This document shows positions 6,868 to 38,300 of a stretch of DNA of 64,000 bases, piece by piece. The number at the start of each line of letters is the position of its first letter. Position 1 is the first letter of the stretch. The stretch is taken from contig NC_087391.1 in assembly GCF_963675165.1 (NCBI RefSeq), forward strand, positions 5,302,126-5,366,125, given 5' to 3'. The notes under the pieces were generated by a model that was not told the origin of the DNA, ran no database searches, and worked only from the letters and a program-made list of their open reading frames with translations. Made by a program: the position numbers and the translations under genes. This stretch comes from Halichondria panicea. Its lineage: Eukaryota; Porifera; Demospongiae; Suberitida; Halichondriidae.

Positions 6868-8068
6868 CCATGTGAGGAAACATTTGGTTGTCCTTATCCT
6901 GCATGTCCTGATGCAGAGGTGTACTATTTCCATGCTGATTACAATACTCAATTGGAGTGGAAAAATACCTCCTACAATCACTCTGATATATGAATTAAGA
7001 GGATTCAATGAAAACTCATTAGGTGTGATGTAAGCCTGACCAGCAGATACATATAGCCCCATCAGTAGAAATGCCAGCTGCATTGGTAGACGTGTGTGCA
7101 TTTCTGGGTTAACATTGTTTTCTGTGAATTAAAAGTATTGCGGAGGAAGATAGTCAGGGTCAAGGGTCAAAAGGTCTAGGTATTCTGCTTCCAGAAGACT
7201 TTAATTCTGATCGTCTTAATCTTATTTAGTAACCTCCAAGTCTTCGTAAATTTCATTGTGGTTGGAGGTAACAAAAAATAGATGATCGGAATTAAAGTTA
7301 TCTGTAAACTGGTTTTAATTAAAACCTTTACACCCCAACTATCCTCATCTGCATACAGCTAATATAATCTGATTGGCTAGAGACACGGTTCCATTTAATG
7401 ATCTAGACACTATTTAGGAAGTTTCTAGAAGACATCAGGGCTAGCAGAACCCTCACTACTTTCGGTACGTATACTACTAATTTGTAGAACACTCTAGTTG
7501 TGAGACGTAGTGTTAGATTGGTTATAAGCATGTTCTAAAATCAGTGCAATTATCTCACCACAAGGATGTTTATTCTGACAGCCACTTCCACTTTGCCTTG
7601 CCAGGTTCTACAGATAGCCTTCAATGGCGAAATAGGTGTTGATACTTTCTTAGGGGCTTGTGTTGATACTTCCCCAGGGGCTTGTGTCAAATGGTTTTGT
7701 TGCTCTTCATAAATTTGCTCATTCGCATTTTCTGGGATATTCTCGTAGCAACGATCAGTTGTTGGCTGTGTAGTAATGATGTTGTAAGCCTGGTTTTGTT
7801 GGACAATCACATTTGCAGCTGACTCCGTAGGGATGATTAATTCGACGTACTCACTGACCTCGTCCAACCGTCCAGTACTGTGCACATTGTAGGCGTGGTT
7901 TTGCTCGATCGGGATATTAGTGAAGTTGTACTCAACATTTTCGTACACTCCTTCATCCCTATGGTCAACACTAACTCTGAGATTGTCAACAGTCTTACTC
8001 TCTCTGCCTGTTCCACTGATCTGTCTTTGTGTGATGACACCGTAGGAACAGTTGTTAACTATCTCCAT
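6868..8068 (-). CDS. Predicted type II membrane protein with tyrosine-motif tail, copy 2 (partial)
   Basis: Paralogue of 4258-5395. Exon 1 is 8068-7559 (170 codons) and exon 2 is 7077-6868 (70 codons), again joined in phase 0 to form the membrane segment. Exon 2 is nearly identical to copy 1; the two differences I see inside it are one synonymous change and one I-to-V change, which supports the reading frame. The tail has diverged more but keeps the motif rhythm: YENVEYNF, QNHAYNV, QNQAYNI, CYENI, IYEEQ. A stretch of copy 1's tail (including ENPAYNF) is absent. Homology between copies extends into introns and flanks (4141-5505 versus 6728-8190). The 3' end beyond the donor at 6868 is not found; 6331-6867 holds a GT tract at 6519-6537 and nothing else I can name. 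Confidence 0.6.
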
Positions 8069-8345
8069 GGCTTAGTTTAGCTTGTCTCTGTGAGTCTATT
8101 AACTTGTATGATAGCTACAGTAACTGAGATAGGTGTGGCCCGGCCACCTCCCAACAAAAAAACGGGCCACCCCCCATCTAATAATAACTGCGATAGCCTA
8201 TTATAACTGCTCAAATGAAAGTGAATCTCCTTTATTATGCTTCGTAATGCTATTCAGAGAAATGTTGCTGTGTTGTGGTTTTGTCAGCGTGTAACTTGTT
8301 GTTGCTACACCCAGCTATTCTGAGTAAGATACTCCTTCCCTTTTC

Positions 8346-12182: not shown

Positions 12183-12391
12183 TGCATGCTACAGTACAGT
12201 ACTTTATACTTACACAGAAAAGACGTCTTTGACAGACATGTGATTACCACCTACGAGGTACGCCCCCCTTAGCTTAACCACACCCCTACAGTACAGATGA
12301 CAGCCTGACTTTTTTCTTTTTCAACCTATACACGTAGGAACACCAGCCCCACCCCTCTTTCACGCTCCTTACCAAAAACCACGTGGAATGA
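12183..12391. promoter_or_regulatory. Shared WASHC1/RPAP1 divergent promoter with E-box
   Basis: Between the WASHC1 start and the RPAP1 remnant. 12330-12390 matches the sequence just upstream of intact RPAP1 (23531-23586): CACCAGCCCCACC, CTTTCACGCT, CTTACCAAAA and CCACGTGG. The CACGTG E-box (12380-12385; 23579-23584) is kept in both copies and would suit USF/MYC/TFE-type factors. Promoter function is inferred from position and conservation. Confidence 0.5.
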
Positions 12392-12610
12392 TGAGCTCTG
12401 TGATGTTTGCAACTTGTATTATTAGTCACTTGCAGAAAATGTAAGTTATTTTATAATTATGTTCATTATTTTCCATTCTCGATCTCTTGCATGCAGATAT
12501 TGTGTTGGATGAATTACATGCTCTGAGATCACATGATGAACAAACTAGAGGAGGGTGAAAACGAAACAGATATTATGTCGGGACATTACATTGCCTGGTA
12601 AGATATAATT

Positions 12611-12821
12611 CCGTATAGCGCGCGGGTAATTTTTGTGGGGTAAAATATTGGTTATTTTTGTGGGCAAGCTGACCTCTACGAAAATTTCTCCCACGAAAAC
12701 ATAGGCGTGGCTACATGCAGTGCAGTGCAGGCAATAAGTCCAACGAAATTTTTACTCACAAAAATCACCGTTTTCGAGTTGCACGATTTTTTTACCCCAC
12801 GAAATTACCTGCTATATACGG
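12611..12821. mobile_element. Small inverted-repeat element, 211 bp
   Basis: Left end CCGTATAGCG, then GGGTAATTTTTGTGGGGTAA; right end is its imperfect reverse complement (TTACCCCACGAAATTACC ... TATACGG). Related ends occur at 1-40 and near 18938-18965. 12822-13075 shows nothing further. Confidence 0.6.
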
Positions 12822-13075
12822 TATAAAATATATCAGGTAATAGAAATCATAATAGTTAATTGGAACACCCTAAATTAAATGAGTTAATATAATTAGCTAT
12901 TTCACGTATATAGCAACTTTATTAATGTGTTCATTTATCACGCCAATAAAATGAGAAGGAGATTCCACGTTGAGATTGTAGAGTTTGCAGGAGGTACATG
13001 TGAGCATGATAACTACAGCCGTACAGCAGAGGAGGTTGGCACAATTAAAATCTGTTTGTTTCACCACGGTTTTTT

Positions 13076-13144
13076 CAGCAGGTTGAAGACGAATTCGAGG
13101 CAAACAGTTTTTGTGTTGTCCTCGAATTCGTCTTCAACCTGCTG
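13076..13144. repeat. 25-bp perfect inverted repeat, 19-nt loop
   Basis: Arms 13076-13100 (CAGCAGGTTGAAGACGAATT...) and 13120-13144 are exact reverse complements. No transposon-like ends or target duplication are apparent. 13145-13656 has no recognised gene. Confidence 0.85.
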
Positions 13145-13656
13145 ATCTCACTCTTGCTATTCTTGAGTATTTATCTCTCTTGTATACATCTCCTGTTAGT
13201 TTATAAATCATAAACCCATGATTGCTATACCTGCTACATTAAGACAGGAGTCAAAAAACCAAGGAAAGTGCAGCAACAACTCGAAAATTGAGTTTCTGGC
13301 TCATTGCTTCAAGTATGACTATGCTTTCTAGCATGACTGGGTTGTTAGCATCATTTACTGCTAGTAAGTATAGAAGGCTATAATATACGATCGTTTGAAT
13401 CCTTAGCTAGAATAGCTACTTTTCTCTGTACGTTTCCTTCTTTTTTCTCTCTGTGCATGCACATTCCTCCGTTGATATGTGACCAACCTCCTCTGGCTGT
13501 GCAGTGAATGCCTAAATAACGTGGGTGTGGTCTCGTTAATGACGTACACTATTTAACTTTGCATCTTCAATGAATGTGAATAATTAATGAATGCACTAAA
13601 AATGAAATGTAACATAAATTTTGAAACGAACGACCACTGTGAAGTAAGGCCATCTG

Positions 13657-14910
13657 TTAGCTAAGATACTTTTGTGCTATTTTATTAGCTATACTTGTAT
13701 TCATTATCGGGTAAAGCGTCACTGCTAGAATTACGTCTTCCCAAGTGGCCTCTCCAGTGTTCACATAAGCTTCGATGCATCTAAGCTTCAAGACAGACAC
13801 TTCCAAGCGAGAGTGTCTTAACTCATCGATTAGCCCAGTTTTGATACCCAGGTTTACACACAGTGCCTCCCAGTTACCAATATCCTCCAACATCGAGTAC
13901 AGCTCTTTGACACTTGTAATGGGATGTACGTGCTGATGGGTGGATACATTGCTAAGGCGATGATCTCGCTGTGCTGGCCAAATTCCTTCATTGTCAGGCA
14001 TGTCCTTTGCGCCATATTTTCTAAGCGTTTTCTCACACTGTACGTCATTCTTTCGGACTGCTGCATGAAGCATCCTCGTTCCTCTTTGAAGGTCCAGAAG
14101 AAGGTCATTCGTATCAATGTCGTACTTCTGGCACAGGGACAGCACACTTTCAATCTCATGGTGCTTGTTCCTGTTCATCAGATAGTGCCATGGCGTGTTG
14201 CCTCGACTGTCTGGGATCAAGAGCACAGGTAGAATTTGCACATTTAGTTTTTCACAGACTTTTAGTAAAATTCTGAAGAAGTTAACGTGACCTCGCTGGA
14301 ACGCTTTGTGTAAAAGCGTGGTGCCAGCGAGTGCATGGACCCCCGTCAAGTGTGCTAGTACCCCATAGCTGATCGACAATTCTAATAGCACCTCTGCTGC
14401 TTCAAAGTGGCCTAACTCAAATGCTAATTCGAGCGGGACTTCTTCTTTGTTATTCTTCGCAAGGAGAATATTCTTGGTGTACTTAGGGTACGTATTAGCA
14501 AAAACTGTCACATAGTGTTTATCAGCCATTCCTTTAATGGCCGAGTGTAGTGGTATGTCTCCATCATTGTCCATCCAAATGATGTAGATGTCATAACTTT
14601 CATCTTCCAGGTAGAGCAGAATCTTCTCAATGAGATCGATCGGGAAGACACTGTAAGACCTGGCAATCTGATTGAGTATAGTCCCCCCAAAGAGACTATC
14701 TCTCGTTTCCAGGATACATTTCCTGAAGACTTGCTTTAGGTCGGATGATGTAGTCATGCCTAGCCAGTGGTGCTGAAGCCACTTTGACAGTAAAGTCTGG
14801 CTAGACTCAAAAATTATTTCCACTCCAGTCATGCAATTTTGGTCTTGTTTTCCAACGACCAACGACACGACGCTGAGCAGTACAAAGGAGAAGATGTTTG
14901 TGATGTTCAT
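13657..14910 (-). CDS. Signal peptide / ankyrin / Death-domain protein, copy A
   Basis: A single uninterrupted frame of 417 aa. Residues 1-20 are a clear signal peptide (IFSFVLLSVVSLVVG). A conserved N-terminal region (DSLFGGTILNQIARS) is followed by about five ankyrin-type repeats (DNDGDIPLHSAIKGM, VPLELAFELGHFEAAEVLLE, TTLLHKAFQRGHVNFFRILL, DSRGNTPWHYLMNR, MLHAAVRKNDVQCEK). The last ~85 residues (WEALCVNLGI, IDELRHSRLE, LKLRCIEAY, TWEDVILAV) fit a Death domain. Death and ankyrin domains normally act in the cytosol, so the secretory signal is odd. It has no introns, lies antisense in a remnant of RPAP1 and is roughly 60% identical to 26095-27357. An open frame of this length among decayed exons implies selection. 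I do not know its function; an immune or cell-death role is inference. Confidence 0.8.
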   Translation of the reverse strand: MNITNIFSFVLLSVVSLVVGKQDQNCMTGVEIIFESSQTLLSKWLQHHWLGMTTSSDLKQVFRKCILETRDSLFGGTILNQIARSYSVFPIDLIEKILLYLEDESYDIYIIWMDNDGDIPLHSAIKGMADKHYVTVFANTYPKYTKNILLAKNNKEEVPLELAFELGHFEAAEVLLELSISYGVLAHLTGVHALAGTTLLHKAFQRGHVNFFRILLKVCEKLNVQILPVLLIPDSRGNTPWHYLMNRNKHHEIESVLSLCQKYDIDTNDLLLDLQRGTRMLHAAVRKNDVQCEKTLRKYGAKDMPDNEGIWPAQRDHRLSNVSTHQHVHPITSVKELYSMLEDIGNWEALCVNLGIKTGLIDELRHSRLEVSVLKLRCIEAYVNTGEATWEDVILAVTLYPIMNTSIANKIAQKYLS

Positions 14911-14994
14911 CCTGCTGGGTCTGTAGAAAAGAACTCTATATTACTTAGATTCCAAACTAATTATGTTAACTTACTAGCCGTAGTAGTTGTTTTC

Positions 14995-15130
14995 TAAGAT
15001 ATTGTATAGTGGGAAATTTCGTTAGGAGTAAAATTTTGTGTTTTTCGAGGGAAAAGTAGTAATGCGAAAATTAAAACAATAAACTCCCACACACCGGTAT
15101 TTCACATGCAAAGCTCTTGGTGGGTGTGGA
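14995..15130. repeat. Dispersed repeat, also near 20650-20830 inverted
   Basis: CACATGCAAAGCTCTTGGTG near 15104 recurs in reverse complement near 20664-20694, together with flanking AT-rich sequence. Probably a transposon fragment; ends not defined. Confidence 0.4.
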
Positions 15131-15709
15131 GAGCTATTATATAATAATAGCTTTGTGAATCCATACTAGCTGGAGTCCTGATACTAGTACATGTGGTACT
15201 TGTCATAGTGTGTGTTTTTTTATGCAGGGATATTTGAATATGAAGTTGCTTCACCGTCTCCGCTACATCCTGGAGGTGTGTGCCCCGCCCACTCCACTAC
15301 CCTCACACCTGTTGGATGTGGTCACCATGGTAGCAAGACACTCTGTCTACGCAGCCACTGAGGTATAAGCCATGTTGGTATGGTAAGTATATTCTTGATA
15401 ATTAATTTGTTGTGTGTAGTATTTTAAATGAATGCAATCTCTTCAGGTGTACAGCTGCCCACGTCTGATGGATTATTGTTTTTGGTCAGTTTCTACCACT
15501 TGATTGGTCGACTGGGAGAGGGGATGTGGTTGATGGGCCTGCATGTGTGTCTGCACTAAAGCTAGTGTGTGCACTGGTGTCAGCTAGTAGGAATATCACA
15601 ACTGCTTTGGTGAGTAAACATACACTGTGTTTGAGAGCAAATTATTGCTTATTGATACACGCTGTGTCAATATTTATACCTTGGTGCGCATGTGCAAGTG
15701 AGGCGTACG

Positions 15710-15710
15710 G

Positions 15711-15754
<44 letters not shown>
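15710..15754. repeat. GT microsatellite
   Basis: An uninterrupted (GT)n tract just downstream of the exon-10 remnant. 15760-16350 has no recognised gene. Confidence 0.9.
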
Positions 15755-15757
<3 letters not shown>

Positions 15758-16352
15758 ATTGAAGTGTATACAAAAGGTATTGGGGTGGGCAGGGATTGTC
15801 AGTCGCACACCCTCCCAATCAAACGGAAAGCTTCTAATAAAAATATATATACGATGGTTGGAATCCAGCCTTCATTCATTATTTTGTCTATAATTACTTA
15901 GCATATGGTTTGTTTACCTCCTTCTAGGTTGCAAATGGGTATTCACACATGTATATGTCTGTCATAATATGTGTCACTAAAGGTAAATAAGTGTACGTGT
16001 GAAACACACATATAGAATAGAAAGAAATCAAACAGGAACAAAAAAAGCAAACAGATGCCCGGCCTTGAGAGCCGAGAATGATGGGTTAAAGAGTCTTTAA
16101 CGGTGCACCAACCCTCCCCATTCATCTGTTGCATTCAGAATAACTAGTATACTGAATAATTTTTGTAAGCTATTCACTTGGGGCCATGCTGATATTGTAA
16201 GCTATATTTATATTTGAGGTAATGCTGACATAAAGTATAGAACTTATCTTAGACTTGATAATTGGCTGCTGTAATACTTCAACTTAGCTTGCATGGCTGT
16301 GTGCTTTGTGTGAAATAATATGACCTTGCAAGGGAGGCTTAATTTATAAGTA

Positions 16353-16660
16353 CAGTAGAACCTCGATTATCCGGCCCTCGATTATCCGGAACCTCGATTA
16401 TCCGGCTTGACTTTTTTTATTTTATCAGATTACATAATTCATAAAATGGGCGTGTCCCTCAAATGCGCATGCGCGTTGCAGTTGTTACCATGGAGACATA
16501 CCTGCTTTTCTTTTGCGCATGCGCAGACAACCATGTGACACTGCTGTTCATCAATAAAGTGGGTGGATCAAGGAGTGGTTTATCTATTCGATTATCCGGC
16601 ATATTCACTTATCCGGCCTGCTTCTGGAACCAAGGTGTCCGGATAATCGAGGTTCTACTG
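16353..16660. mobile_element. pogo/Tigger-like MITE, TA target duplication
   Basis: Ends CAGTAGAACCTCGATTATCC and its reverse complement, flanked by TA on both sides. Such ends are typical of pogo/Tigger-type Tc1-mariner elements. The CCTCGATTATCCGG end motif is repeated three times at the left end. Two further copies lie at 50513-50793 and 50838-51105. No transposase. Confidence 0.8.
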
Positions 16661-16821
16661 TACAGGCCTGTATTGTCTGAGCCAGGTTTTGTGGTGATAG
16701 TATCTGATAATGGGATGCATATGGATCTATGTGGTTCTTCTAGGTGGCAAGCACAAACAAGCATTAACCTCAAATGTTGGTTCTTAGAATTAGCGTTAGG
16801 CATTAGTAAAAAAAAAAGATA

Positions 16822-16952
<131 letters not shown>

Positions 16953-17053
16953 GGAGTGTTGCTACTCTACTTAGTAGTTAGCTCTGCTATTGGTAGCTGA
17001 GAGAGGGAGAAGAAAGCTGCAATTAATACTCTGCTGATATGATGCAAAAATGT

Positions 17054-17872
17054 ATAATGTGTGTATAAAAGCTATTGCTATAATAGCTAGTAGCTTTAGT
17101 TTTGACACCTCCATCGAGGCATCAGCACCCGCGGTGCTTTCATTAGTTACAGATTTTGATGTTAAAGCTTTGTTGTTGAATAAAAACAAGGAAGTTTAAC
17201 TTGCACGTTGGTTGCATGGCAAGCTAGCTACACGTGGCCTTTATTCGAGGCACTTACATGTAATTACACAATGTATATGATTTTTTGTTTTGAAAGTACT
17301 TATTTGCTGACTCTAGGACCAGGACTCCAGAAGCCATACTTCTTAAGTCTCCAGGCTTTTTGCTCCTAGTCCACAGCTAATGCATGTCTATGTACCACTA
17401 AAATTTCGGTCTCTTAATTAATTAGTACTTTAGAAAAGATGGGACTTTCCCAGGGAAAATCCCTGAGACTATATGTAATTAAAATAAAATACCAGTATAC
17501 CATGTACCAACCACAAATTACTTTGATGTGCATGTGTGCATATCAATATGAAAGCACCGCAGGTGCTGATGCCTCGGTGGAGGTGTCAAAAGTACACAAC
17601 ATAAAGCTACTAAAGTCTATTTGTGCTAAGTTTGACCTTCATAACTTTGTCATACTTTACTGAAATTCAAAGTTACATATACCATTGGATTCCTTGTTAA
17701 AAAGCGCTTCTATCTATATGCTGTAGAGCTGGTAAGCTCCAACCAGCTAAAAGTTAGTATTTTCCATAGAAGTCCCAGGCATACTTGTCCACATAAATGA
17801 AGCCATAATTGACCACATAATTTCCGGGGTCGAACTCAACACAAAATAGCAATAGCTTTTATACACACATTA
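17054..17872. mobile_element. ~820-bp inverted-repeat element
   Basis: Outer ends TAATGTGTGTATAAAAGCTA and reverse complement near 17846-17872. An inner inverted pair (GACACCTCC..GAGGCATCAGCACC.. at 17104-17145 and its complement at 17548-17592) lies in the same orientation as the outer pair. The interior is AT-rich with no convincing frame. 17873-18417 shows no recognised gene. Confidence 0.55.
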
Positions 17873-18665
17873 TGAAGAATTCAGAATCACAGAGAAACAG
17901 CCCCACCCCACTACTCAGTGTAACTGCTGCTCGAACAGCGCTCCACGGTGGTCTATCCTCGGCATCACAACCAAGCCAAGAAGCTCGCCTCTACACTGCT
18001 GCAAAACAGCTCAAGCCCCCAGCAAAAAGAGCCGCTTCTAGTGCTATGGTGAAACAGAATTGACATGCATCACGAGGTCGAGGACTAGGTCTAGGAACAC
18101 AGAATCTTCACAAAATGAACCTGACAATTTTAAAACCTGCATGGTTGCAAAGAAGAAACTCCAGCAGTGTTGAACATTCCTGCATGGCTGGACTTACTTT
18201 GATACTTGTTATTTCTCATGGTAATTATTAGCAAAGGGGCGGTTTGCGGTCAGTGCATTATAACTTTCAGCAGTGCATTATGCTGCATATTGCACTTCGC
18301 AACAATGTAGCAACGGGATATAACCATAATTATATAGCTTGAGCTTTTGCTTGAATCTCAAATTGTGTCATTTGTTCATATAGATGTTCTGCGAGAATGA
18401 CTTTCATATAGGGACACGTTTCCCGAGTTGCTGAAGTGGCCACTACACCTGAGCAGCTCAAGATTGAGGGAACCACTGGTATGTCATGATGACGTTGACT
18501 ACATTAATTAGTGCATAACATTTAATTTATTTTGTACTCAATAGCCTACCCACCCCCCCTGCCGTGGACCGGAGTCACTCTCTCGGGCTCCACTGCTCAG
18601 TCTATAGCTAACACTCTAACACAATAACTTTCTAAGACTACTGAGGTGAGTGAGGTCTCAGTGTG

Positions 18666-18748
18666 CACTGTCCCCATAGCTCGTGTCTACTAACTTTTAG
18701 TAGACACGAGCTATGGAAAGTTAGTAGACACGAGCTATGGGGACAGTG
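18666..18748. repeat. 31-bp perfect inverted repeat with a third copy in the spacer
   Basis: Arms 18666-18696 and 18718-18748 are exact reverse complements (CACTGTCCCCATAGCTCGTG...). The spacer holds an extra direct copy of 19 bases of the right arm (TTAGTAGACACGAGCTATGG region, 18698-18716). Confidence 0.85.
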
Positions 18749-19016
18749 TACGTACACGGAGATTTTTAGATCAAAGCTTACCTATAGCTAGTCTAATTAA
18801 GTCCACGAAAATTGTTCTTTAATTAGAATTATCTGCTATAACGTGCAAAGATTAAAGGCGTGGCTTCCGGTAAGCAATCATTCCATGAACATTGTGCAAC
18901 GAAAGGCTTTTACAGGCCATTTTACGAAATATAAGTGCCTCTAAAATTTCGCGCTATACGGTATATCAACAGTGAAACTTACACTATCCATTCTTACAGT
19001 ATAAGAAATTGGCAAT

Positions 19017-19084
19017 CACAACAGCTGCACTATACTGATCGATACAATCAGTATAGTGCAGCTGTTGTGTGCAGCTGTTGTGAT
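19017..19084. repeat. 23-bp perfect inverted repeat with extra partial arm
   Basis: Arms 19017-19039 (CACAACAGCTGCACTATACT...) and 19047-19069 are exact complements with a 7-nt spacer. 19070-19084 repeats 15 bases of the right arm (TGCAGCTGTTGTGAT). Confidence 0.85.
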
Positions 19085-19329
19085 GTGCGATTTTCTGAAA
19101 GCTTATCAATGCATGTTATTTGGCCACAAATTCTGTCATCATCCATAGTACCTTTTGACTAATCTTCCTTTCAGAAAATAGTGCAACTGCCCTGACCTTA
19201 TTAGGTATTCTTTTACATGCCGTTATCTATCCTTTTACTTGCATGTACATGTATACATTGTAAATACTGTCTTGCCACGTACTCTCCCCTCCCAATGTAA
19301 GCTCATGCACACACACAAACTCTATCTAC

Positions 19330-21158
19330 ATCCACTCCCCTCACACCTGTTGGACGTGATCACCATAGTAGCAAGACACTCCGTATACGCAGCCACTGAG
19401 GTAAGCCAAGCTGGTATGGTAGATATAATATTCTAGATCATTAATTGTGAGTATGTACTTATGTATTTTATATTTGCTAAATGGAATCTTCAGGTATCTT
19501 CAGATGTACAGCTGCCCTTGTCTGATGGATGTTGTCTTCAGCCAGTTCCTACACTTGATTGGTTAACTGAGAGAGGGGGTGTGGTTGATGGGCCTGCATT
19601 TGCATCTGCATTGAAGCTAGTGTGATGATTAAGCTTGATCCTAGGCCGCACTATCTCCTTTGTTTAAAGGCCTGTGAAGGAAGCTATGTTGTTATATGCA
19701 CAGATTTTGTACTGTCAAGGTTTCAGTTGACTTAGCTTGAAGTTTTATAATACATTGTACAATGTACTTACACCTGTTTATACCCTCCCTTGCAGTTATC
19801 TTGTCACCACCTATCCTCTGTGCTTGTCCGGTACACTATCCCCCCTGCCCTCTGAACTGGGACTACCTCTAGACCACTCCCTCCCCCTCTCTACCACGGC
19901 TCTGCTCACATGGGCACTGGCACTAGGCTACGGACTAGCCTCTCACGCAGTCAGGTGAGAGTGTGCATAAGCATTAGCTACAGTTGTACATAGCTAGTAC
20001 ATTGCGTAAGACCCAGTGTTTAGTATAACATTGTTGAATGGCCATAACTTTAAGTTCTGGAAGCCTGGGAAGATGTCATAATTCGTGTCATTTTCGGCTT
20101 AGCACAATGTGTGACTTTTTTAATGTTAGGGACACGTTTCCAGAGTTACTGAAGCAGTTGCACTGTGTTTCCCTGGACAACGGTAGCTCTCCCCTGCAAG
20201 CTAACAGAGACAAGGCTCTACTGTGTCTAGTGGAGGCAGTTCTCAGACTAGTGGCTATTACACCTGAGCAGCTCAAGATTGAGGGAACTACTGGTATGTC
20301 ATGATGACGTTGACTAGTGCATAGCCCTAATATTTGATTTCTGTTGTACTCACTAGCTACCCCCCCTACCCCAGACACCCACCCTCCCCCTGCCGTGGAC
20401 TGGAGTCATCCTCGGGCTCTGTTGGCTCCACTACTTAGTCTAACACAATGGCTGACTGAGACTACTGAGGTGAGAGGAGGTATCAGCTAGTACACTGGCT
20501 AGGCAGGGGGGCTACAATCAGAAATCCTACTACATGTGCTTGCGCAATGCATATGCATATGTAATTATAGCCACATTGTTTTGAGTGCGTGATCGAGGAA
20601 AATTATTGCTAAATGGTTTGAAAGCCCTCAGAAGAATGTTCGTATTCGCATTTCAATGCCAGGAAACCACACCCACCAAGAGCTTTGCATGTGCAAATAT
20701 ATAAATATCGGTGTGTGGGAGTTTATCCACGTTTTAATATTCGCCTGCTCTATCCTAATAAACACAAAAATTAACACTGCACATAATTTCCCGCATACGG
20801 TATCACAATACTTGTACCGTCGCGGGAAATTTAGTTTTGCGATTTAATTTTTGTAAAGTGATCAAAGTTTGCAAGTGATTATGCTCGCATAACATTCTAT
20901 AGTAATACGGTAGTTCTTAGAATTACGTACTTTTCCAATGGTGTGCTCTAATATAACTTTTGTCAATCAGTCGCGAAGCCAATAGCATTCAAAGTTCTGC
21001 GAAAATTAATAATTCGCAAAATATTTTACATGTGATACTATAAATACTGTGTACATTTCACTATTATGCAGTTTTCTGCTTGTACAGGACGCACCGTGTG
21101 CTGGCAATGTGCTGCACTGTCTTGCCACATACTACCATCTCTCCCCTCCCAATGTAAG

Positions 21159-21224
<66 letters not shown>

Positions 21225-22480
21225 ACACACACACACACTTTGTTGTAAGTCTATCTACACACAAATGCTCACCTTAACAGCAGTAGATCCTTTAGGCCAT
21301 AATTATAGAAATGGCAGAATCAATGGATACAGTAGAATCAATAAATCTCTCAGAGCAACTGGCCTCACTGTTACAACTGTGTGTAACCATGTGACCATAA
21401 TGTTTATGTTTGTTTTTCCTGGCACATGCACACTTTTAGTTTTACAAGTTTGAAAGTGTGAATGCTCTTCCTCTCTCTTTGTATAAGACATCTGGTTGTG
21501 TGGGTTTATAGCAGTGCCCTCTAATTACGATGACTTCAATATTATTTTTTCCCATAATAATTTTAGCACCATTTTTTCAGTGCACATACATGTAGTCTCT
21601 CAAAATAATTTGTTTGCTGCCGCTGTTATTACATCAACTACGATGATATACCATATTAAAACTTTGTGAATATTCCCCCACAGAGATACGTCTGGTATTG
21701 CCACTCCCCTCGACACTCCGGGCACACCTCCACCACCCTCCCTACCCTCACACTTCACACTCCCCACACCCAACAAGCCTGCACTGTACGGCCGCCCCAC
21801 GATGCAGTCAGGTGACTACCACAGTCTAGTGCAGCCTCGACTCTCGCTACTGACAGCCACCAACCTGACCTGGGGGTACATCAGACTAGTGGCACTACAC
21901 AGCAACAAGGCCACAGGTTGAAACCTTGCTGTGAGTGAGTACATTGATACTTATTTTATGATATGGTTTGTAAGTAGCTGGAGCATATATATAATTATAG
22001 TGGCTGCAATAGCATATTCACACCTGCACAATTATTATTTTTACTTTGTCTTTTTATGCTGATGCTCTTCCTCTCTTTGTAGGTGGCTGCGATAGTTTGC
22101 AACCCAGTGTATATTGAGTATCTCAATAAAGTGTCACAATCTGATGGTTCAAAGGTGAGTTGTCTCCAACTCGACGCTAGCTAGTACACATGCTTGAAGT
22201 ATCTCTCTCCATGCACTCAGGCGTCATCAACAATTGACCTTATTGAACTGTACATGCTCTATGAATCTGTACTGATGCTTCAGTCTCTTATAAGTTACCT
22301 CATTGTCTGATTATGTTTATGTGTTTAGGTGGAGTTGGGTTCATCCGTCCCAGAGGGGTGTGGTCAATTGACGTTTGATCTTGGACATAGGTTACTTAAA
22401 CTCCTCCCACCTGAACCAGAGAGTATCGTATGTATTGAGTCTCCACTGTTGTATTGCACCCCTCGCTTATCAGGTAGTGT
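19330..22480 (+). pseudogene. RPAP1: RPAP1 pseudogene, segment 2 (exons 9-19)
   Basis: A second decayed run of RPAP1 exons, starting again at exon 9 right after the exon-14 piece of segment 1. Approximate matches: exon 9 3' half 19330-19401, exon 10 19497-19630 (truncated), exon 11 19797-19953 (one inserted G in a C-rich run), exon 12 20130-20294, exon 13 20370-20466, exon 14 21089-21156, a trace of exon 15 near 21330-21370, exon 16 21684-21915, exon 17 22082-22154, exon 18 22221-22289 and exon 19 22330-22472. Exon 18 has lost its donor (GTAAGT is ATAAGT). Exon 19 is frameshifted near its end. It could not encode RPAP1. Confidence 0.85.
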
Positions 22481-23515: not shown

Positions 23516-23631
23516 GGAACAAGGCTGCAAAACACCAGCCCCACCCCCCAGCCTATCTTTCACGCTTCTTACCAAAACCACGTGGAGCCAACTTAGTTGA
23601 TGTCAAGGTTGCATTAATTAATAAAAGAAGA
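23516..23631 (+). promoter_or_regulatory. RPAP1 proximal promoter/5' UTR with E-box
   Basis: 116 bp between the WASHC1 remnant and the RPAP1 start. It contains CACGTG at 23579-23584, conserved with 12380-12385. Function inferred from conservation. Confidence 0.45.
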
Positions 23632-26600
23632 ATGATTCGGAGGCCTACAGCTACTGACACAGAAGATGACCTACTCGCCTTCCAGGAGAAGTTCATGTCC
23701 TCTGGGGAGAAGCCCTCTGCCTCGGTGGATTCTCACAGAAAGATTAAAGTAGGCTCCAAGAGGGATCAGCATGACGACAGTAGTAAGGAAGGTCCTGCTC
23801 AAGCAAGAGATGTGGTGGATATTAAGAAGGTGGAGGGTAAGATAAATGAACTCCTATCAAATGGCACGGGATGTGGAAATGCAACTACAAGCCTACATAC
23901 GCTGAATGCACACACACTTGCTCGTATATTATAATTATGACATGTATGCAGGTGGTATGGCGAAACCTCCTGCCAAGAGATCAAAGTTCAAGGAGGAAAG
24001 AATGAAGAAGAAGAGGTCAGCTGCTCCGGACCAGCATGAACTAATGGAGGGTAAGAGAAAAGAGAAGATTTTAATACCACTGTGTATGTGTGAGTACACG
24101 TTCGTACAGATCAGGATACGCACGTCACCAAGATACTCTCTGAAATACAGGTGATGTTTGTTACCTAATATATTTAAAATTAGTAATGGTTTTGTATTCC
24201 CACTTGCAGGAACGTGATACGATAAAGTTCACAATGTCCATGCCTAGATATACCACCAGAGGGGGTTTCCCCTCCGCCCACACCCTGGACACCACTACCA
24301 TGGTTACGTCAACGGCAGAGGGTCAGGCGAAGAAGAGTTTGTTTGCTCAGGCATTTGAGGCTCATGGATCAAGTTTCTTTGGACTGGAGGAGATGGTTGG
24401 TCAAGATGAGCAGATGGTTGAAGGTGGTGGGGGTGTGCCCTCTGGAGGAAGCAAAGGAGGAGAGGAAGTTGCTGCAGATACTATAGAAAGGTTAGTATAA
24501 TAATTTATTTACAGATTACAAATACACTATATAGTTTGTAACTGATAATGTTTCCCAGGCTTGATTTTTCGTCTCTTATTTCTGGAGAGGGTCTCATGTC
24601 CGTGGGCGCATCCAAGGAGGCAGCAAAAGAGGAAGTGATGAAGATCCATGAGGAGAATGTGCAACGACTGTCGTCCCTATCAGAGGAGGAAAGAAAGAAA
24701 GAAAGAGAGAACATAGTGCAGCAGCTAGGTAAGAAATACAAAATTGTAAAATTTGTGTCATAATAAACTCGTTTCTACAGATCCTAATCTCCTCTCGTTT
24801 CTCAAGTCTAGACACCTTCAGAAACAGCCGCTTCAACCATCTACTGGTGATCACATGACTATGGATCACACCCCTCAACCTCCTGTATTGGCAGACACAG
24901 CCTCTGATACGACCACACCCACTTCCTGGGTCCACATGGACGTGGTGGAGAGAGACAAGATGGAGTGGATGACGGACGTACCATCTCACGGGACTGCCCC
25001 TCTCGTCAGGAGCAGTAACGAGATCAGGTTCTCATTGGAGGGGCTGGTCATCCCACGCTCGATAGTAATACCCGCCCACCTTGGGTTACATCACCATGGT
25101 GACGAACCCCAGGTAGAGCTCAGTACACATAATGTCTTCTAGTGTGCATACAACTATTTCATTATTTCATTATTTTTACCTAGTTATTATTGTTAATTTT
25201 TGCCCCCAGGCTGCTGGCTACACTTTGAACGAGTTGTTGTCCCTGTGTAGAAGTACAGTGCTACAACAGCGAACCTTTAGTCTGCAACTGCTAGCTAAGG
25301 TCATTCAGAGAGCGAGGCATAACGAATACTCTAGTGTGAAGAGTGGATCTCGTGACAAGTGTGAGGATGGTGACTCTGTTCTCGAGCAGTTGCTTGCCTC
25401 TGATGTCCCGCTGTTGCTAAGATACTCTTTAGACGAGAATGTGAGCTCTGTGATGTTTGCAGCAGCTGCTGGTCTGCACTCGCTGTTAGTCATCCCTCCA
25501 GAAAATGTCAGTTACTTAGGTTGGTGCAATATTGAGATATTTTCTATTCTCTTGCATGCAGGTATTGTTGGAGGAATACATGCTCTCTTATTTTGGATGT
25601 GTTTTGCCGGCTTTGAGGTCACATGACAAACGAACTGTGGAGGAGGGGGAAAACGAAACTGAGATATTACATCACGACATTATATTGGTAAGAAATCTAT
25701 ATTATTACTCATGCTCTCGTTCTGCACTGCTAATAATTATGCTACTGCTAGTATGCAACTTGAGCCTGAGGGCAAGAGTTGTGTATTAACAGTACAGCGC
25801 AGCACAAGGAAATGACCTACTTATTGCTGATTACATAGTCCTGCGTCATGCTGTTTCCAAGTATCAGCCCTATGCTCATAACTGGTTACCGCGGTTATAA
25901 TGATTAGAATTGGTTCGCCATGCACGCATCCACAATGTTCACACTCAGAAAAGCTTATTTGAGGATACAGTTTTCTACAAAGAGCTACTAACAAAAGCAT
26001 TGGAAGTATATATATACATCTAATGCTCTAAAATGTTTGAGTGATTCTAGCTGCTACGTTATAATTCTAGTGGTGTCCGTGTGATAATTATCTATCAATT
26101 TTGCAAATGTTCCTGGGTGATCTTGCGGACAATATCTAATTTATGAATGGGATACAGGGTCACAGCTAGGATCACTTCTTCCCACGTGGGGTTGCCATTG
26201 TCGAAATATGCCTCAGCACACCGAAGCTTTTGGACCGATACTTCAAGTCGAGAATGTCTTAGCTCGTCGATAAAACCACTTCTGATACCCAAATGTACAC
26301 ATAGTGCCTCCCAATTTCCCACGTCTTCGAGCATTATGTACAGATCCTTGATCCTGGTAATGGGATGAGAATCCTTATTTTCTGCAAGGCCATTTGAGCT
26401 GAATCGGTGGTTTCGTTGTTGTGGCCAGAGTCCCTTGTTGTCAGGCTGGTCTGTCACTCCCCACTTTCTTAGTATCTTCTCGCATTGTCGATCGTTCCTG
26501 CGGACAGCTTCGTGCAACATCGTTGTTTTCTTCTGAGGGTCTGAATATAGTTTATTGACATCAATTCCGTATTTGTTGCACAAGTACATCACCTGCTCAA

Positions 26601-29600
26601 TCTCATGGTACTTATGTCGGTTTATGAGATAATACCATGGCGTGTTACCTTGACTATCCGGAACCAATAACACTGGTAGTATGGATATATTGAGCTTCAT
26701 ACAAACTGTTAACACGATTTGGAAGTATTCAAGGTGTCCACGTTTGAACGCCTTGTGTAGCAGAGTTGTGCTACTGAGTGTATCAACGCCTGTTAAATGT
26801 TCTAACACTCGATGTTGTACCGATAATTCCAGTAGCACTTCCACCGCTTCAAAGTTTCCTAACTCAAAGGCCAAATCCAGTGGAACGTTACCCTTATTGT
26901 TCATAGCCTTCAAACATTGGTCGGTGTACTTTGGGAAAATGTCAGCGAAGATTTTGATGTAAGATTGATTGGCCATTCCTTTGATTGCTGAGTGTAGGGG
27001 TATATCGCCATCATTGTCCATGATTGATAGATAAACTGCATATCCTTCATCTTTCAAATAGTTCAAAATTTTCACAATCAGGGGAATTGGAAACACATCA
27101 TACGATCGGGCGAGTTGATTGAGGATGGTTCCTCCGAATAGACTGTCTCTCTGTTCCAGTATGCAGCCCCTGAAGACGTCCTGCAGGTCACTTGAAGTGA
27201 TGTTCACCCAATTGTGTTCGAGCCATCTAGACAACAGGACCTGGCTACAATTTTCGTTGAAGAGTTCCTCGACACCAGTCGTGCAGAAAATCTTGCTTTC
27301 AGTTGTCCATACAAAAAGAAGGACTACTACAATAACTTGATGCAGGTGAGACTTCATTGCAAAGCTTTAACCATGAGAACTATGTATATATCCAGCACAG
27401 CTGAGAGTTTTTATACTAGTAGAAACCGGATGAATACATGTACATTTTTGTGGCTGGGTTTCATCTTGTGGGAGGGGGGGCAGGGGTAAATATTCCCCCT
27501 CCCCCCAAATGTTGAAGAATAGTACTGTTTATGATATCTACTGTGATGCATTAGCATGTAATAGGGGGTGTGGTCAACACATGTGGGAGTGGTCAGCTAT
27601 TTTGGGGCGTGCGTAAACCTTCCCCCCCATACGAGTAACTGCCTAACATTACGCTATGTTTATAGTTATAATTATGTCTGCCATTTGCTATGTTTATGGA
27701 ACATTTCTTGTGTAGGATTGCTAATAAATGTATATATACTGCATACCTTAAGGTGACATTATTTTCGCGAGTATTAATTTCTGCTATTTCTGCGAATGAG
27801 AGTAAAATCGCAAAAATTAGTACTCGCAAATAATTGGCGGCGGCGCCCTCTTGTTTAATGTATCCAGATCTCGAAAAATTATACCAGCAAAATATACAAA
27901 ACTGTAAAAACGCAAACAAATCTACCTGTGAAAATATGTCACCTTAAGGTAATTGCAGGGATATTTGAATATCGTTCACTGGTAAACTTTACTTGGCAAT
28001 TTGATAAAATTTTCCAAATTAAAATGCTCGCCAAATTTTCTCGTTATATGTAGTTATTTTCTAAGACAGCTGTTGGGGAATTTATGTATAATATTATGTG
28101 GTTTTTAGAATGTTGTGGTTTATTATTAGTGTACTGTCATATTGTGTGCATTTATGCAGGGATATTTGAATATGAAGTTGCTTCACCGTCTCCGCTACAT
28201 TCTGGAGGTGTGTGCCCCGCCCACTCCACTCCCCTCACACCTGTTGGACGTGGTAACCATGGTAGCAAGACACTCAGTCTACGCAGCCACTGAGGTAAGC
28301 CAAGTTGGAAATCACATTAATTGGTATTTTATACTTGCTTGCTAAAATGAATGCAATGTTCATCAGGTGTACAGCTGCCCACGTCTGATGGATGTTGTCT
28401 TTAGTCAGTTCCTGCCACTTGATTGGTCGACTGAGAGAGGGGGTGTGGTTGATGGGCCTGCGTGTGTGTCTGCACTGAAGCTGGTGTGTGCACTGGTCTC
28501 AGCTAGTAGGAACATCACTACTGCTTTGGTGAGTAAACACATATCAAAGTAGGTCTAAAATTTGGTTTTTAAACATTTGGAAAATTGTCCCAGGATTTTT
28601 CCCTGGAAAAGCCCCATCACTTTGGTTTTAAACATTTGGAAACTTGCCCCCCCCCCCCCCCCCGGATTTTTCCTGGGATTTTCCCTGGAATTTTCCCTGG
28701 GAAAGTCCATCACTTATCTACACTCTTGGTTTGGCTTCTTCCCAGAATACCTGAGCTTAGCAACAATCATTGTAGCCTCGATCCCAGGCCGCTCTTCCTC
28801 AAAGAAAGGGCCTTGTATCGACTGCTTGCGCATGCGCCACATAATCCCAGAAACTGGGGACTCCGGATATCATCGTATATTGCTCAGTAAAACCATGACG
28901 TTACAACGAACGGAAGTGGATTGAAGTCAGTGGAGAAGTGCGATTGTGAAGGTTTTTAGCCCGTGTGATAGCATTCTAATAGCTGCCCTTAGCCTGCTAT
29001 GTTAACAAAGGACTCACAGCCTGCAACAGTGTGGATGGCAATCGTCTGAAAGGAGGGAAGGCTGACAATGCTTATATGGACAGGCCACGCCCATCTGACA
29101 CTAACCTCAAGTGGTGAAAGTCTACATGTAGACTATCAGAAGAAATAGCATGCTGTACCCAAACATACAGCTCTGTCTCTAGCTAGCTAGCTATATAGTT
29201 CTGTGTATGTAGTGTTCTTTGTGTGTATATGTCATTCAGGATATTAATGGGAAACATTACGGGGAAATTATCCAATAATTTTGCGCGTCAGTAGCAGGCC
29301 TCCTTTTTGTGAAGGAGGCTACAATCATTGTTGTTATTGCAGTACTTGTCAGCAACGTTTTAATTACACCATTGTGTATGTGGGTTGTGCTTGAGTATTA
29401 CATTGTACAATGTACTTAATTTAACCCTCCCGTGCAGTTATCTTGTCACCACCTCTCCTCTGTGCTTGTACGGTACACTATCCCCCCTCCCTCTGAACTG
29501 GGACTGCCTCTAGACCACTCCCTCCCCCTCTCTACCACGGCTCTGCTCACATGGGCACTGGCACTGGGCTATGGACTAGCCTCTCACGCAGTCAGGTGAG

Positions 29601-31203
29601 AGTGTGCGTAAGCATTAGCTAGCTACATGTACATAGCTAGATTGCGTAAAACTTAGATATTGAATGGCTACGTTCTAGAGATTGTAAGCCTGGGAAGATA
29701 TAATTATACCTAAATCTATATTTCAATATCATAGAAGCTCTGTATTACCATAGATAGAGTAGAGAGGGATTGGAAACGAAAGTACCCTTGAAGTACCATC
29801 CGTGTATCTCCGCGGTTTTAATCGAGGCTTACTTTTTAACACGAGGGCTAAACATGAATAATTCATGAGAATTGTTTGCTCTCTGTAAGAAGTCCACGAG
29901 CAGTTCTGCTGCTAAACATCAACTTTTATCTAATACTTGAGGCCATTTAGGACACTATTTAGTTACACAACCTTAGCTATATCATAGGTTCTATAGGAAC
30001 ACAAGCATGAAAAGCGCTGTGTACCTCTAGCTACTTCACGACAATCGAGATTATATTTTCTTCGTTTCCAATTGATACCTACTATCAGGGGGCATGTGAT
30101 TCAGTAATGGGGGTAGCTCTGAGATGTATGCATTGGACACAATAAGTTTCCCGGGCTTTTGCGGGAGTTATGAGGAGATACACGGATGGTCCCAGAGCCA
30201 CTACGTAGACTTCATTGTAAAACATCACGTGAATCACTTCCGTTTCTACTCGGTATATCACTAATTTAAGTGTGTGCACTGTATAACTTTTCATGTAGGG
30301 ACACGTTTCCAGAGTTACTGAAGCAGCTGCACTGTGTCTCCCTGGACAACGGTAGCTCTCCCCTGCAAGCTAACAGGGACAAGGCTCTACTGTGTCTAGT
30401 GGAGGCAGTTCTCAGACTTGTGGCCATTACACCTGAGCAGCTCAAGATTGAGGGAACCACTGGTATGTCATGATGACGTTGACTAGTGCATAGCCCTAAT
30501 ATTTGATTTCTGTTGTACTCACTAGCCTACCACACCCACCCACCCCACCCCCAGACACCCATCCTCCCCCTGCCGTGGACTGGAGCCACTCTCGTGCTCT
30601 GTTGGCTCCACTGCTCAGTCTTACACAACAGCTGACTGAGACTACTGAGGTGAGCCATTGATTAACAGGAGTGGTGGTGTAGCCATAGTTTACCTTAAGG
30701 TTGGTATTATTGGCGGGTACTAATTTTAGCGAGTTGAAATGACTAGACTGGCGACGCGACAATATTACTCTCTAATTGTACGTAATGCTGACGTGTTTGT
30801 ATTATTAGCGAGTGGTTGATTTAGCGGAAAAAATGTCAATTCGCTAAATTCGCTAAAATAACAACCCGTTAATAATACCGACCTTAAGGTAGTTCTGATA
30901 ATCCAATTTTCAAAGAAATGTTATGATTCTCTGAAAGCTTAGAGAAAGACCTTTCAAACGATGCCCTAAATGAGTAATGCATTTCCTAGACGTGTTTACT
31001 AACATGCGGTTCCTTCGTTTACGTGTGTAGGCTAGGCGTGTAGATGTGTACTGTTTCAATCATGACAATTTACCATCATATAATTCATGCAGTTTTCTGC
31101 TTGTATACAGGATTCACCGTGTGCTGGCAATGTGCTGCACTGTCTTGCCACATACTATCATCTCTCCCCTCCCAATGTAAGCACACACACACACACACAC
31201 ACA

Positions 31204-31263
<60 letters not shown>

Positions 31264-32595
31264 TGCACGCACTGTGTTGTAAGTCAATCGTTTTAAACAT
31301 ATTTAACAGGTATCTTCAGTGGATCTCTCAGAGCAGCTAGCCTCACTGTTTAAAGGGCCCTTCTTGTGTTTGGCCAGTTCACCTCTCTTTACAAATTCTC
31401 TGCTGACTATCCGGCAAGTCTGTTTAAATGTGCATGCTAAAATGTCATGTTATGTAAAACTCGTACTTGTGCTACAGTGTAGGAAGCTTAGGCAGGGTTA
31501 CTAAGTCTCCTCCCCCCAAAAAATATATGGCGTTGTAATCACATCACTACATTACTCCCCATCCCCGCAGAGATACATCTGGTATTGCCACTCCCCTCGA
31601 CACTCCGGGCACACCTCCACCACCCTCCCTACCCTCACACTTCACACTCCCCACACCCAACAAGCCTGCACTGTACGGCCGTCCCACGATGCAGTCAGGT
31701 GACTACCACAGTCTAGTACAGCCTCGACTATCGCTACTGACAGCTACCAACCTGACCTGGGGGTACATCAGACTAGTCAGAGTGGCACTACACAGTAACA
31801 AGGCCACAACCACTAAGGTGAGGGAAGATGTTGTTGAAACTATAGCAATGAGTTAATTAGTAGAACATAGATATACAAAGCGGGTTTGATATCGTGTGTA
31901 CAAGTTGCTAGAACTGAGTATTCATATTGAATTTCTGCCTCTGCATGATATTATAGGTGGCTGCGATAGTTTGCAACCCAGTGTATATTGAGTATCTCAA
32001 GAAAGTGGCACAGTCGGAGGGTTCAAAGGTGGGTTGTCCCCAACACGATGCTAGCTAGTACACATGCTTGAAGTATCTCTCTCCATGCACTCAGGCGTCG
32101 TCAACAATTGACCTTGTTGAACTGTACATGCTCTACGAATCTGTGCTGATGCTTCAGTCTCTCGTAAGTTACCTCATTGTCTGTATAATTATATGATTAT
32201 GTTTATGTATTCAGGTGGAGCTAGGTTCGTCCGTCCCAGAGGGGTGTGGTCAATTGACGTTTGATCTTGGACACAGGTTACTCAAACTCCTCCCACCTGG
32301 ACTGGAGAGTATCGTATGGGATCTAGTCTCCACTGTTGTATTACACCCCTCGCTTATCAGGTAGTGTAGTTATATAGCCATGCAAGACAACACTCACACC
32401 CACCCCCTCCACACACACACACACACACGTACCCACCCCCTCTACACACACACCACACACGTACCCACCCCCTCTACACACACACACACACGTACCCACC
32501 CCCTCTACACACACACACGTACCCACCCCCTCTACACACACACACACACACACACGTACCCACCCCCTCTACACACACACACGTACCCACCCCCT

Positions 32596-35306: not shown

Positions 35307-38300
35307 ATGGATGCTGCTGATGCTGTGAAGTTGAGAGACAGCTACCAGATGCCCAGGCTGGGGTTGGGGACCTACATGGTGGGCAAGGAGAGTGTGTGTA
35401 ATGCTCTCAAGAGTGGCTACAGACTCATAGACACAGCCAGCTTGTATGGGTAGGTATAGGTGTTCATTCTCTATATAGCTGAGTTCAGGGAGAGGTAATG
35501 CATGAAGATCTACTTATTTGTGCAAAATATAATTATGTTCATGCATTATACCCATCTCCTTGAAAGAGTTTTGGTTGTGATGGTTGTGAGGCCATGCGCC
35601 AGTACATGGTGCGCTTAGCGAACTCTCAATAAATTTCTCACACTCGAAAAATTGATCTTTGATTATTGAGCTCTCCGACTCCAAAGATATAATATAGGAG
35701 GGAGCCAAGGTGGTCCAATTTGTACATGAAATGAATCATTACAATGAATGGAAAAAATATATCAGGGCCTATTCTGGAGATATATAAAAGAATGTAAGAT
35801 ACAAACATAAAAAGGTTAACCATGGTTCTTCGAAAGAGCGGTGGCCTGTTCTTCGAGGTTAGGGCGCAGTTGCCTGGACTACTCATAATGTAAACTATTA
35901 CACCAGCAGTGCACTACAAGTACAAATAGCTTAACGATGCACGTAGCTCTGACAAAAGATTATTTTGCCAATTATCGATGCCGGGAAGGGATGGCTTTTT
36001 GTAGTGACCTGCAGGTACGATCTTTATTCTATCTACCACCTCCTTTGGGAGATGAATATCTTCAAGAAGTCTCACTCGTATTACTTCCCTCAATTTTTCC
36101 AATTGTTTTATATATTTTTCATCATCTTCATGTAAATCATCATCTTCATATAAATCATCGATCGTAGCCTTTAGAACGTTTGCAAGTGTGAGCACGATCA
36201 CAGTGCTTTTCCACAACTCGACTCCAAATGTTACTGTTAGCTTTTTCATTGCAATAATATCTGGGTTATCGTCACCTGGCACAAATCTTGATTGATTGCA
36301 ATTAATACAGAAGAGCGTAAAGTCGTACTTAGAGTAGATTAGCGATAATATTCTAAGATATTCTTTGTCCCTTGTGCCATCTTGCAGACCTGGAGTATCA
36401 CACAAAGCTATGCTTATGCCATGTTTTGTTGTATGGTACTCGTAAACACATACTGTTTTACGCTTTAAAAAATGTCCTTCAATTTCTGGAAGCTTTTCTT
36501 TCAGAAAAGAATTCACCAGCGTAGATTTTCCGACCCCTGGCCTTCCACAGATTAAGAGCTTCATTTGGCCAATATAAGTAGCTTTCACTGTTTTTATAGA
36601 ATGTTTCGTCCAGGGCCCTTCTTTTTCTAGTAGCTTGATAAACTTGTAGTAGGAGCGTGGATTTGCTTTCACATAATCCGTCATCGTATTGACAAGTATC
36701 TGAGCCTTCTCTACATCAGCTTTGTTGCCTGTTGGTCCAGTGAGATCTCTAATGTATTCAGATATAAATTCTTCAGCAAACATGGCAGTGCCAATGGTAA
36801 TAGGTGACTGTTTCACTACATCCAGGAGTACTGAGGCACTCTTACGCATGGTGATGTATTCTCTAGAGGTTGCTTCTTCAGAATCCTTTTCGCTGGATGG
36901 CTTGGTAGCCATTGGTTCATTTGTCTGGCTCATTTTAGATGTGATACCAGCCTCACCTCCAAATTTTGATAGAGACGACCACATCCACATATCATGTCAT
37001 GTCATGTGACATGAATGTTATTGCCAAGCCCTTTTAGTCCCTTTGATCTATCACTATGTCTGGCCCATTTTGAATGTGACACCAGCTAGCCTCACCAGCC
37101 GGAAAAACTGCAAGAGCAAGACATGCAGTGTTCAAAATTGCTTCTGGTTATTTAACTTCCCCCCCCTGACTGTACCTTTGATTCCTTTACACTTGCAGGA
37201 ATGAAGAGGGTGTTGGTGAAGCTATCCAGGAGTCAGGTATTCCCAGAGAGGAGCTATTCGTGGTCACCAAGGTGAGTGCATGTGACTGAGTGTGAGGTGG
37301 TGGTGGTGTGACTGAGTGTGAGGTGTGTGTGTGACTGAGTGTTGCCTCTGCCTGCAGGCATGGAACAATGAGCACGGGAGAGAGGAGATCAACGAAGCAT
37401 TTCAGAGGAGTCTAAAGAAGTGAGTTGAATTTATATCACTGATACATGATTGATAATTATACTAATGCAATGCTGATGCATAAATATCTCATACATGAAT
37501 GCCGATGTAGATAAGTTTTATTAGCTGCATGTCTTCATTCTGTTTTCTATAATGTACATGTATCCATACATGCATGCATGTAGACTGGGACTGGACTATG
37601 TGGACCTGTATCTCATGCACTCCCCAGCTGGGGGGAGACTACTGGAGACCTGGGACACTATGTGCCAGCTGCAAGCAAAGGGTCTCATCAGGTCAACCTC
37701 AAATACAGGCCTACAACATTTATAATTTCTAGGCACTTTCAAAATCTGTTGACGCAGAATTTATATACTGTGAATGGTGTATTTTTGTGCATAGGTCAGT
37801 GGGTGTGGCTAATTTTAACGCCAGTCACCTGACAGAACTGAAGAAGGCGAGACCAGACAATATTCCAATGGGTGAGTGTTACTACTTCAGCATCTCTAGT
37901 GATGATTTCAAACGTCTTACATATACCTTCTTCTTCAGTGAATCAGATTGAGATCCATCCATTTGTGAGCTGGAACGAGTGTCTGGAGGTGTGTCAGAGG
38001 GAGGGTATTACAGTGATGGCCTATTCCCCACTGGCTCAGGCTGGGAAACTCACTGACCCCACTCTTGTGGGTATCGCTGGAAAGTGAGAGCATGCAAGCA
38101 TACAATACTGTTTACAACCTTCGCAGACAAAGTTTGGGTTGTTTAATTAATACACGGACGGCCTTTATTGAGGGGTTGCAGTTAGTGTACTAACTGATTT
38201 GGGACTCATAGTTGGGCTTTTTTTCAGGAGTGGCCGTTAAGAAGAGTTCTACTGTAAACTTCTGTTTGTTGACTTTGACTCGTAATACTATTCTAAGGAA

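Follow-up and report, generated by a model that had tools for sequence, protein, structure and literature searches.

The window analyzed here is a stretch of 64,000 nucleotides from the sponge Halichondria panicea (NCBI RefSeq assembly GCF_963675165.1, contig NC_087391.1, positions 5,302,126 to 5,366,125 of the forward strand), in which two minus-strand genes, A and B, each appear to encode a signal peptide, ankyrin repeats, and a C-terminal Death domain. Both open reading frames (ORFs) are present as the first-pass annotation listed them: gene A (26095..27357) is a one-exon coding sequence of 420 residues with an ATG start, and gene B (13657..14910) is its paralogue of 417 residues, also with an ATG start and with the same architecture. 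That annotation counted two paralogues. A and B are indeed paralogous, and a search of the whole genome with A (131 Mb in 39 contigs) revealed a third full-length copy, C (C15:3910278-3911525, loci L010/L039), which is 72% identical to A and lies on the same contig as the window, here C15, 1.4 Mb off. On balance, and with some reserve, we regard A, B, and C as protein-coding paralogues in which a single coding exon encodes an ankyrin-Death fusion behind an N-terminal signal peptide.

The N-terminus of A (residues 1-21, 27295..27357, minus strand) resembles a signal peptide with the core VIVVVLLFVW and a candidate cleavage site between TES and KI. The N-terminus of B (residues 1-20, 14851..14910, minus strand) is of the same kind, with candidate cleavage between VVG and KQ. 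These calls are based on hydrophobicity, conservation, and the rule of small residues at positions -3 and -1. When the 233 window ORFs with an ATG start and at least 40 residues were ranked by N-terminal hydrophobic core together with the (-3,-1) rule, A came first and B seventh, and a score equal to the A/B class (h of at least 3.0 plus a cleavage site) was reached by 5 of the 231 others. By this simple rule, a signal-peptide layout (n-, h-, and c-regions, and small residues at both -3 and -1) is clear in A and B and weak in C. The hydrophobic core is retained at the first codons of all three copies despite their divergence. In simulations of random substitution (20,000 trials each, with divergence capped at the observed level and the start codon protected), an open frame whose core was at least as hydrophobic as that of B survived in 0.55% of trials from A to a B-like sequence, 2.3% from C to B-like, and 5.2% from A to C-like; the two B-like simulations ran with fewer changes per site than observed, which favors survival. 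The charges flanking the core are +2/-2 in A, +1/-1 in B, and +2/+2 in C, and those of A and B would favor an N-terminus inside and a C-terminus in the lumen. The core of A spans 10 residues with polar residues directly behind it, and the cores of B and C, as we delimited them, span 14-16. Two N-glycosylation sequons are common to A and C (A 52/C 56 and A 223/C 227).

An in-frame TAA (27367..27369, minus strand) lies 9 nt upstream of the start codon of A, and the open frame then reads SFAM..., so no in-frame upstream extension crosses this stop. Further upstream (52-58 nt from the start codon), a TATA-box-like TATAAAA (27409..27415, minus strand) can be picked out from the sequence alone. In B, an acceptor-like AG (14921..14922, minus strand), with TTCTACAG before the junction and ACCCAGCAG after it, is common to copy C, and the distance from this site to the ATG is 10 nt in B but 45 nt in C. 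Because the phases differ, the exon upstream is most likely untranslated, and an intron in the 5′ untranslated region is likely in both B and C. The first-pass description of these genes as intronless thus appears to apply to the coding part only. From the in-frame stop in A and the acceptor phases in B and C, we put the probable translation start at the annotated methionine. In A (27354-27374, minus strand) and in C (ahead of the ATG, in L039), a short upstream frame terminates at a TGA sharing bases with the main start codon (ATGA), and translational control through this overlap is possible.

Behind the N-terminus, A and B each carry about six ankyrin repeats as counted by eye; those of A occupy residues ~113-300 (26458..27021, minus strand). 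Ank_2, Ank_4, and Ank exceed the Pfam cut-off in both proteins, with Ank_2 expectation values (E) of 5.4e-13 for A and 1.4e-12 for B. The 50 Foldseek matches listed for a full-length model of A were nearly all DARPin or other ankyrin-repeat chains (best E 0.0086). A conserved block ahead of these repeats, SLFGGTILNQ (27046..27144, minus strand), had been presented as unnamed in the first-pass annotation. Alignment with relatives, Pfam, and modeling suggest instead that it is a degenerate first ankyrin repeat, preceded by a helical cap. The block SLFGGTILNQLARS aligns to GTATHGLARS or TATHAFAAS of relatives, strings that resemble the ankyrin signature TPLHxAA. The best Pfam Ank stretch of the relative L042 falls at residues 37-61, by count this same block (23.2 bits for the protein, cut-off 21.1), and in the full-length model of A the block forms a helix pair, helix 74-84 and a helix from 91, at low confidence.

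The C-terminal domain comprises residues 331-420 in A (26098..26367, minus strand) and positions 13660..13926 (minus strand) in B. Direct searches spoke against a Death domain here. Full-length A or B gave no match to Pfam Death (PF00531) at E<=1, and the isolated domain of either gave none at E<=10. In the isolated-domain scan, Death was matched in two of five members (best E 0.04), which by E-value are the relatives on contig C1 and not A, B, or C. A five-sequence domain alignment compared by hhalign with six strong Death domains gave nothing (probability 0.5%), and a PDB profile search with the five-row alignment gave no Death match. These early negatives were overtaken by bridging homologues and by a 17-row alignment. 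The B domain has 49 non-self matches in the genome, 11 of which fall on Pfam Death places where 0.025 would be expected; 148 such places were listed with 150 of 503 candidates scored, so that the genome count is at least 148. Six of 10 scanned relatives exceed the Pfam Death cut-off. Of the 31 solved chains at E<=1, 30 are Death-domain proteins (best E 0.0046). Structure prediction, which the first-pass annotation had proposed as a check, did return the fold: the model of the A domain (predicted local distance difference test score, pLDDT, 94) is a six-helix Greek-key bundle that matches the Death domains of FADD, RIPK1, and ankyrin. Identity of the A/B domain to the Death superfamily (FADD, RIPK1, PIDD, ankyrin-1/G) is 8-19% in the best 22 rows, below Pfam Death detection. 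Homology bridging for both proteins and the model for A show that the C-terminal domain is homologous to Death domains and is predicted to adopt their fold. The proposed combination of a signal-peptide-like N-terminus, ankyrin repeats, and a Death domain in one exon is therefore supported for A and B, by the hydrophobic core ranks, the Pfam ankyrin matches, and the Death bridging and model, although a Pfam Death call is absent.

The genome is rich in Death domains, and several further features of this repertoire were seen. On C12, the interval 1.04-2.08 Mb constitutes a large ankyrin-Death gene cluster: of the 148 Pfam Death places listed, 31 (by eye) fall there, among ankyrin frames of up to 4555 residues. 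Two long open frames on C6, L057 (C6:5619362, 1663 residues) and L054 (C6:5641541, 1092 residues), have Death domains that are relatives of those in A and B. At C1:3.92-3.98 Mb, closely similar Death-domain frames form a tandem array (L055, L058-L061, L063, and L066), and the four of seven that were scanned are all above the Pfam Death cut-off. Copy C itself extends beyond its Death domain into a hydrophobic tail that A and B do not have (L039:4189-4275, minus strand; residues 428-446, 19-residue mean 2.03), which may be a membrane anchor or chance.

The three copies are under strong purifying selection and diverged anciently. Nonsynonymous divergence (dN) between A and C is 0.18 versus a synonymous divergence (dS) of 1.75; dN is 0.22 for B-C and 0.28 for A-B, with dS saturated in both pairs. 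All three frames are uninterrupted over 417-453 codons. Summed over the three pairs, differences at codon positions 1/2/3 number 31/25/41 within the first 24 codons. For codons 25-45 the corresponding sums are 13/14/27, and the gap of B inside this second stretch measures 6 nt in the DNA alignment. With dS from 1.75 to saturated, the copies are too old for a target-site duplication or a poly(A) tract to be expected around them.

The genome search with A gave 62 matches in all. Besides C, 13 further loci align over the greater part of the ankyrin block (34-40% identity), with one partial match; two adjoining C1 loci match residues 230-417, mainly in the C-terminal part; and the remainder, on C12 and C6, match the ankyrins more weakly. 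Upstream of eight relatives (loci of 6-10 kb), no believable signal-peptide exon was found with a limited list of donor words that may miss an exon. A candidate exon of this kind for g3_C17, 1.3 kb upstream, was weak and is not believed. Nor was a convincing Death domain found near eight relatives in loci of this size; outside the C1 locus and A, B, and C, there was only the weak L040 (E 0.31). Within this ankyrin family, neither the signal peptide nor the Death domain seems to be a general feature. In the 13 relatives inspected, the frame opens at an acceptor-like AG with no signal peptide, which suggests that the form carrying both is a fused, derived one.

Gene A lies antisense between exons of what appears to be RPAP1, a gene associated with RNA polymerase II. 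On the plus strand, two open frames match the first half (24750..25142, E 8.6e-7) and the second half (25117..25626, E 1.1e-12) of RPAP1_C (PF08620). On the other side of A, a conserved coding-like stretch (28142..28297, plus strand) matches 15210-15365 beside B at 96% amino acid identity; from its position and conservation, and with no family match, we consider it the presumed host exon that comes next. Matching neighbors are present downstream of C and B as well, and RPAP1_C frames also lie beside C. The first-pass view of antisense nested genes is borne out as to the antisense position beside RPAP1_C exons, but RPAP1_C is uninterrupted around A only: its copy at C has an in-frame TGA, and around B no RPAP1_C match was found. 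We take A, B, and C to lie antisense within an intron of RPAP1 or of its decayed copies, and in two of the three cases the nested gene seems to have persisted beyond its host. Where the host stretches were compared (window 12339-21915 and 23531-31808, and also L039), DNA identity is 86-95% to the right (downstream) of A and B but 70-82% to the left. The right-flank identity contrasts with the synonymous saturation between A and B, a puzzle that gene conversion of the right-hand part, or duplications of different ages, would explain. Elsewhere in the window, an AIG1/GIMAP-like GTPase ORF of 360 residues (35914-36996, minus strand) has no Pfam match at E<=0.01 over its first ~90 residues. A tandemly duplicated ORF pair, similar by eye, lies at 4811-5413 and 7550-8071 (minus strand), with 4219-4497 and 6829-7128; the one member scanned, 4811-5413, had no Pfam match.

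We lean, by a little, toward secretory entry of A, B, and C, with the Death domain outside the cytosol. In such a scheme, the N-terminus would route the protein into the secretory pathway, and the signal peptide, having a short core and small residues at -1 and -3, would be cleaved. The product would be secreted, as A and B have neither a KDEL-like end nor a membrane segment outside the ankyrin helices. The ankyrin surface might then bind a partner or a microbial ligand outside the cell, and the Death domain might assemble like with like, giving a humoral binder or cross-linker and not a cytosolic adaptor. That the exported domain forms oligomers outside the cell, or in a secretory or phagocytic lumen, and thereby cross-links or tags microbes or dying cells is a speculative step, to which we give only a small chance.

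A number of observations weigh against secretory entry. Death domains are regarded as modules that assemble in the cytosol, and it is there that the known ones work. The sole listed cleavage site of C, between VRT and VQ, is weak, and with balanced flank charges its orientation appears ambiguous. Across 19-residue windows, hydrophobicity in A peaks away from the N-terminus, at residues 214-232 of the ankyrin repeats (mean 2.27; equivalent windows 1.66 in B and 1.68 in C), which we read as ankyrin helices, although a membrane segment there would be possible. No sequon common to A, B, and C was found. Cysteines C65, C219, and C292 also occur, by eye, in some relatives without a same-frame signal peptide and therefore give no sign of disulfides. 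The full-length AlphaFold2 model, built from three sequences, is poor (mean pLDDT 62). The most serious objection comes from the 13 relatives inspected: in all of them an acceptor-like AG in phase 0, at the place of codons 38-40 of A, opens the ankyrin frame, and the frame opening there has no signal peptide; four of the 13 (L013, L016, L019, and L021) have an ATG almost directly after the AG and could start there. A and B retain AGCCAG at this site, and B also has a pyrimidine-rich TCAG at +38. Were the site in use as an acceptor, the stretch encoding the signal peptide would be intronic. This pattern would suit a conventional ANKDD1-like adaptor that stays in the cytosol, in which the hydrophobic N-terminus goes unused because of an alternative first exon, a downstream acceptor or relict intron end, or a downstream start; pyrimidine tracts often encode V, L, and F, the residues of such a core. 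However, the frames of A, B, and C read through the site, and the coding substitution pattern of codons 25-45 extends upstream of it. C has CCAA and no AG at this position, and the tract before AGCCAG in A is 33% pyrimidine. On these three grounds (coding pattern, missing AG, and poor tract), the exons appear to be fused in A, B, and C, which look like an intron-less form, fused or retroposed. Moreover, A has no YAG between +34 and +113, no acceptor-like site in the first 90 nt is common to A, B, and C, the TAGTAG common to A and C (+31/+34 and +40/+43) has a mediocre pyrimidine tract, and the acceptor-like site common to B and C falls before the ATG. We consider an unused N-terminus rather unlikely.

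Retention in the membrane is another alternative. An uncleaved signal anchor could leave the ankyrin repeats and Death domain luminal (type II) or, in the reverse orientation, cytosolic, which would remove the paradox. The longer cores of B and C, the balanced charges and hydrophobic tail of C, and the hydrophobic window in the ankyrin repeats of all three copies (1.66-2.27) are consistent with such an arrangement, but the short core of A with its polar residues right behind, the charge balance of A and B in favor of a luminal C-terminus, and the lack in A and B of the C-terminal stretch, itself perhaps a chance feature, make it improbable. Two other origins can be given little weight. A single coding frame where the relatives appear split, beside exons of a gene whose RPAP1_C is broken around C and missing around B, is what processed pseudogenes left in an intron might look like; three uninterrupted frames with dN far below dS render this very unlikely. 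Descent from a symbiont-type secreted ankyrin protein of bacterial or viral origin finds some encouragement in the ankyrin proteins that sponge symbionts are reported to carry (PMC12345144), and in a weak NCBIfam similarity of the ankyrins of A (21.1 bits) and C (15.9 bits), but not B, to a bacterial ankyrin effector family with a cut-off of 1400. It is hardly credible given the many relatives in the animal's own genome and the acceptor-like site common to B and C, and no relative was confirmed in one scan each of genome contigs and viral contigs with short patterns, which reach fairly close relatives only.

Ankyrin repeats with a C-terminal Death domain are known from ANKDD1, DAPK1, ankyrins, and NF-kB precursors. 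ANKDD1A and ANKDD1B share with A and B the order of ankyrin repeats and then C-terminal Death, but A and B differ in their single coding frame, divergent N-terminal cap, and degenerate first repeat. ANKDD1 is not known to have a signal peptide, and with their signal-peptide-like N-termini A and B would not simply belong to this type, even though ankyrin and Death are both present. Compared with FADD, RIPK1, PIDD, and ankyrin-1/G, the Death domain of A and B is predicted to lie in a setting other than the cytosol. A related Death domain occurs in NLR-like Death-NACHT proteins encoded elsewhere in this genome (L057, E 4.3e-4 to B); unlike A and B, L057 carries NACHT after Death (E 1e-26) and no ankyrin match in the 585 residues scanned. 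Spider latrotoxins are ankyrin-repeat proteins that act outside the cell but are far larger and are not known to have a Death domain; they would resemble A and B as secreted ankyrin proteins, the state that we propose for A and B. Within the titles and abstract starts that we searched (open-licence PMC, part of the matches, with most subscription papers outside), no signal-peptide/ankyrin/Death protein was found. The signal-peptide form would be a new variant among ankyrin-Death proteins, a combination that is itself known. In two sponges, microbial cues reportedly increase the expression of genes with ankyrin repeats and of genes with Death domains (PMC6208332), a response that would fit an immune role for A, B, and C.

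As constrained, old paralogues, these genes make an extracytosolic function of a Death domain directly testable. If the exported domain does assemble outside the cell, the assembly principle of the death fold would be in use as a humoral factor. The three copies further suggest that nested genes may survive the decay of the gene around them, with RPAP1_C broken around C and not found around B while the inner genes are intact.

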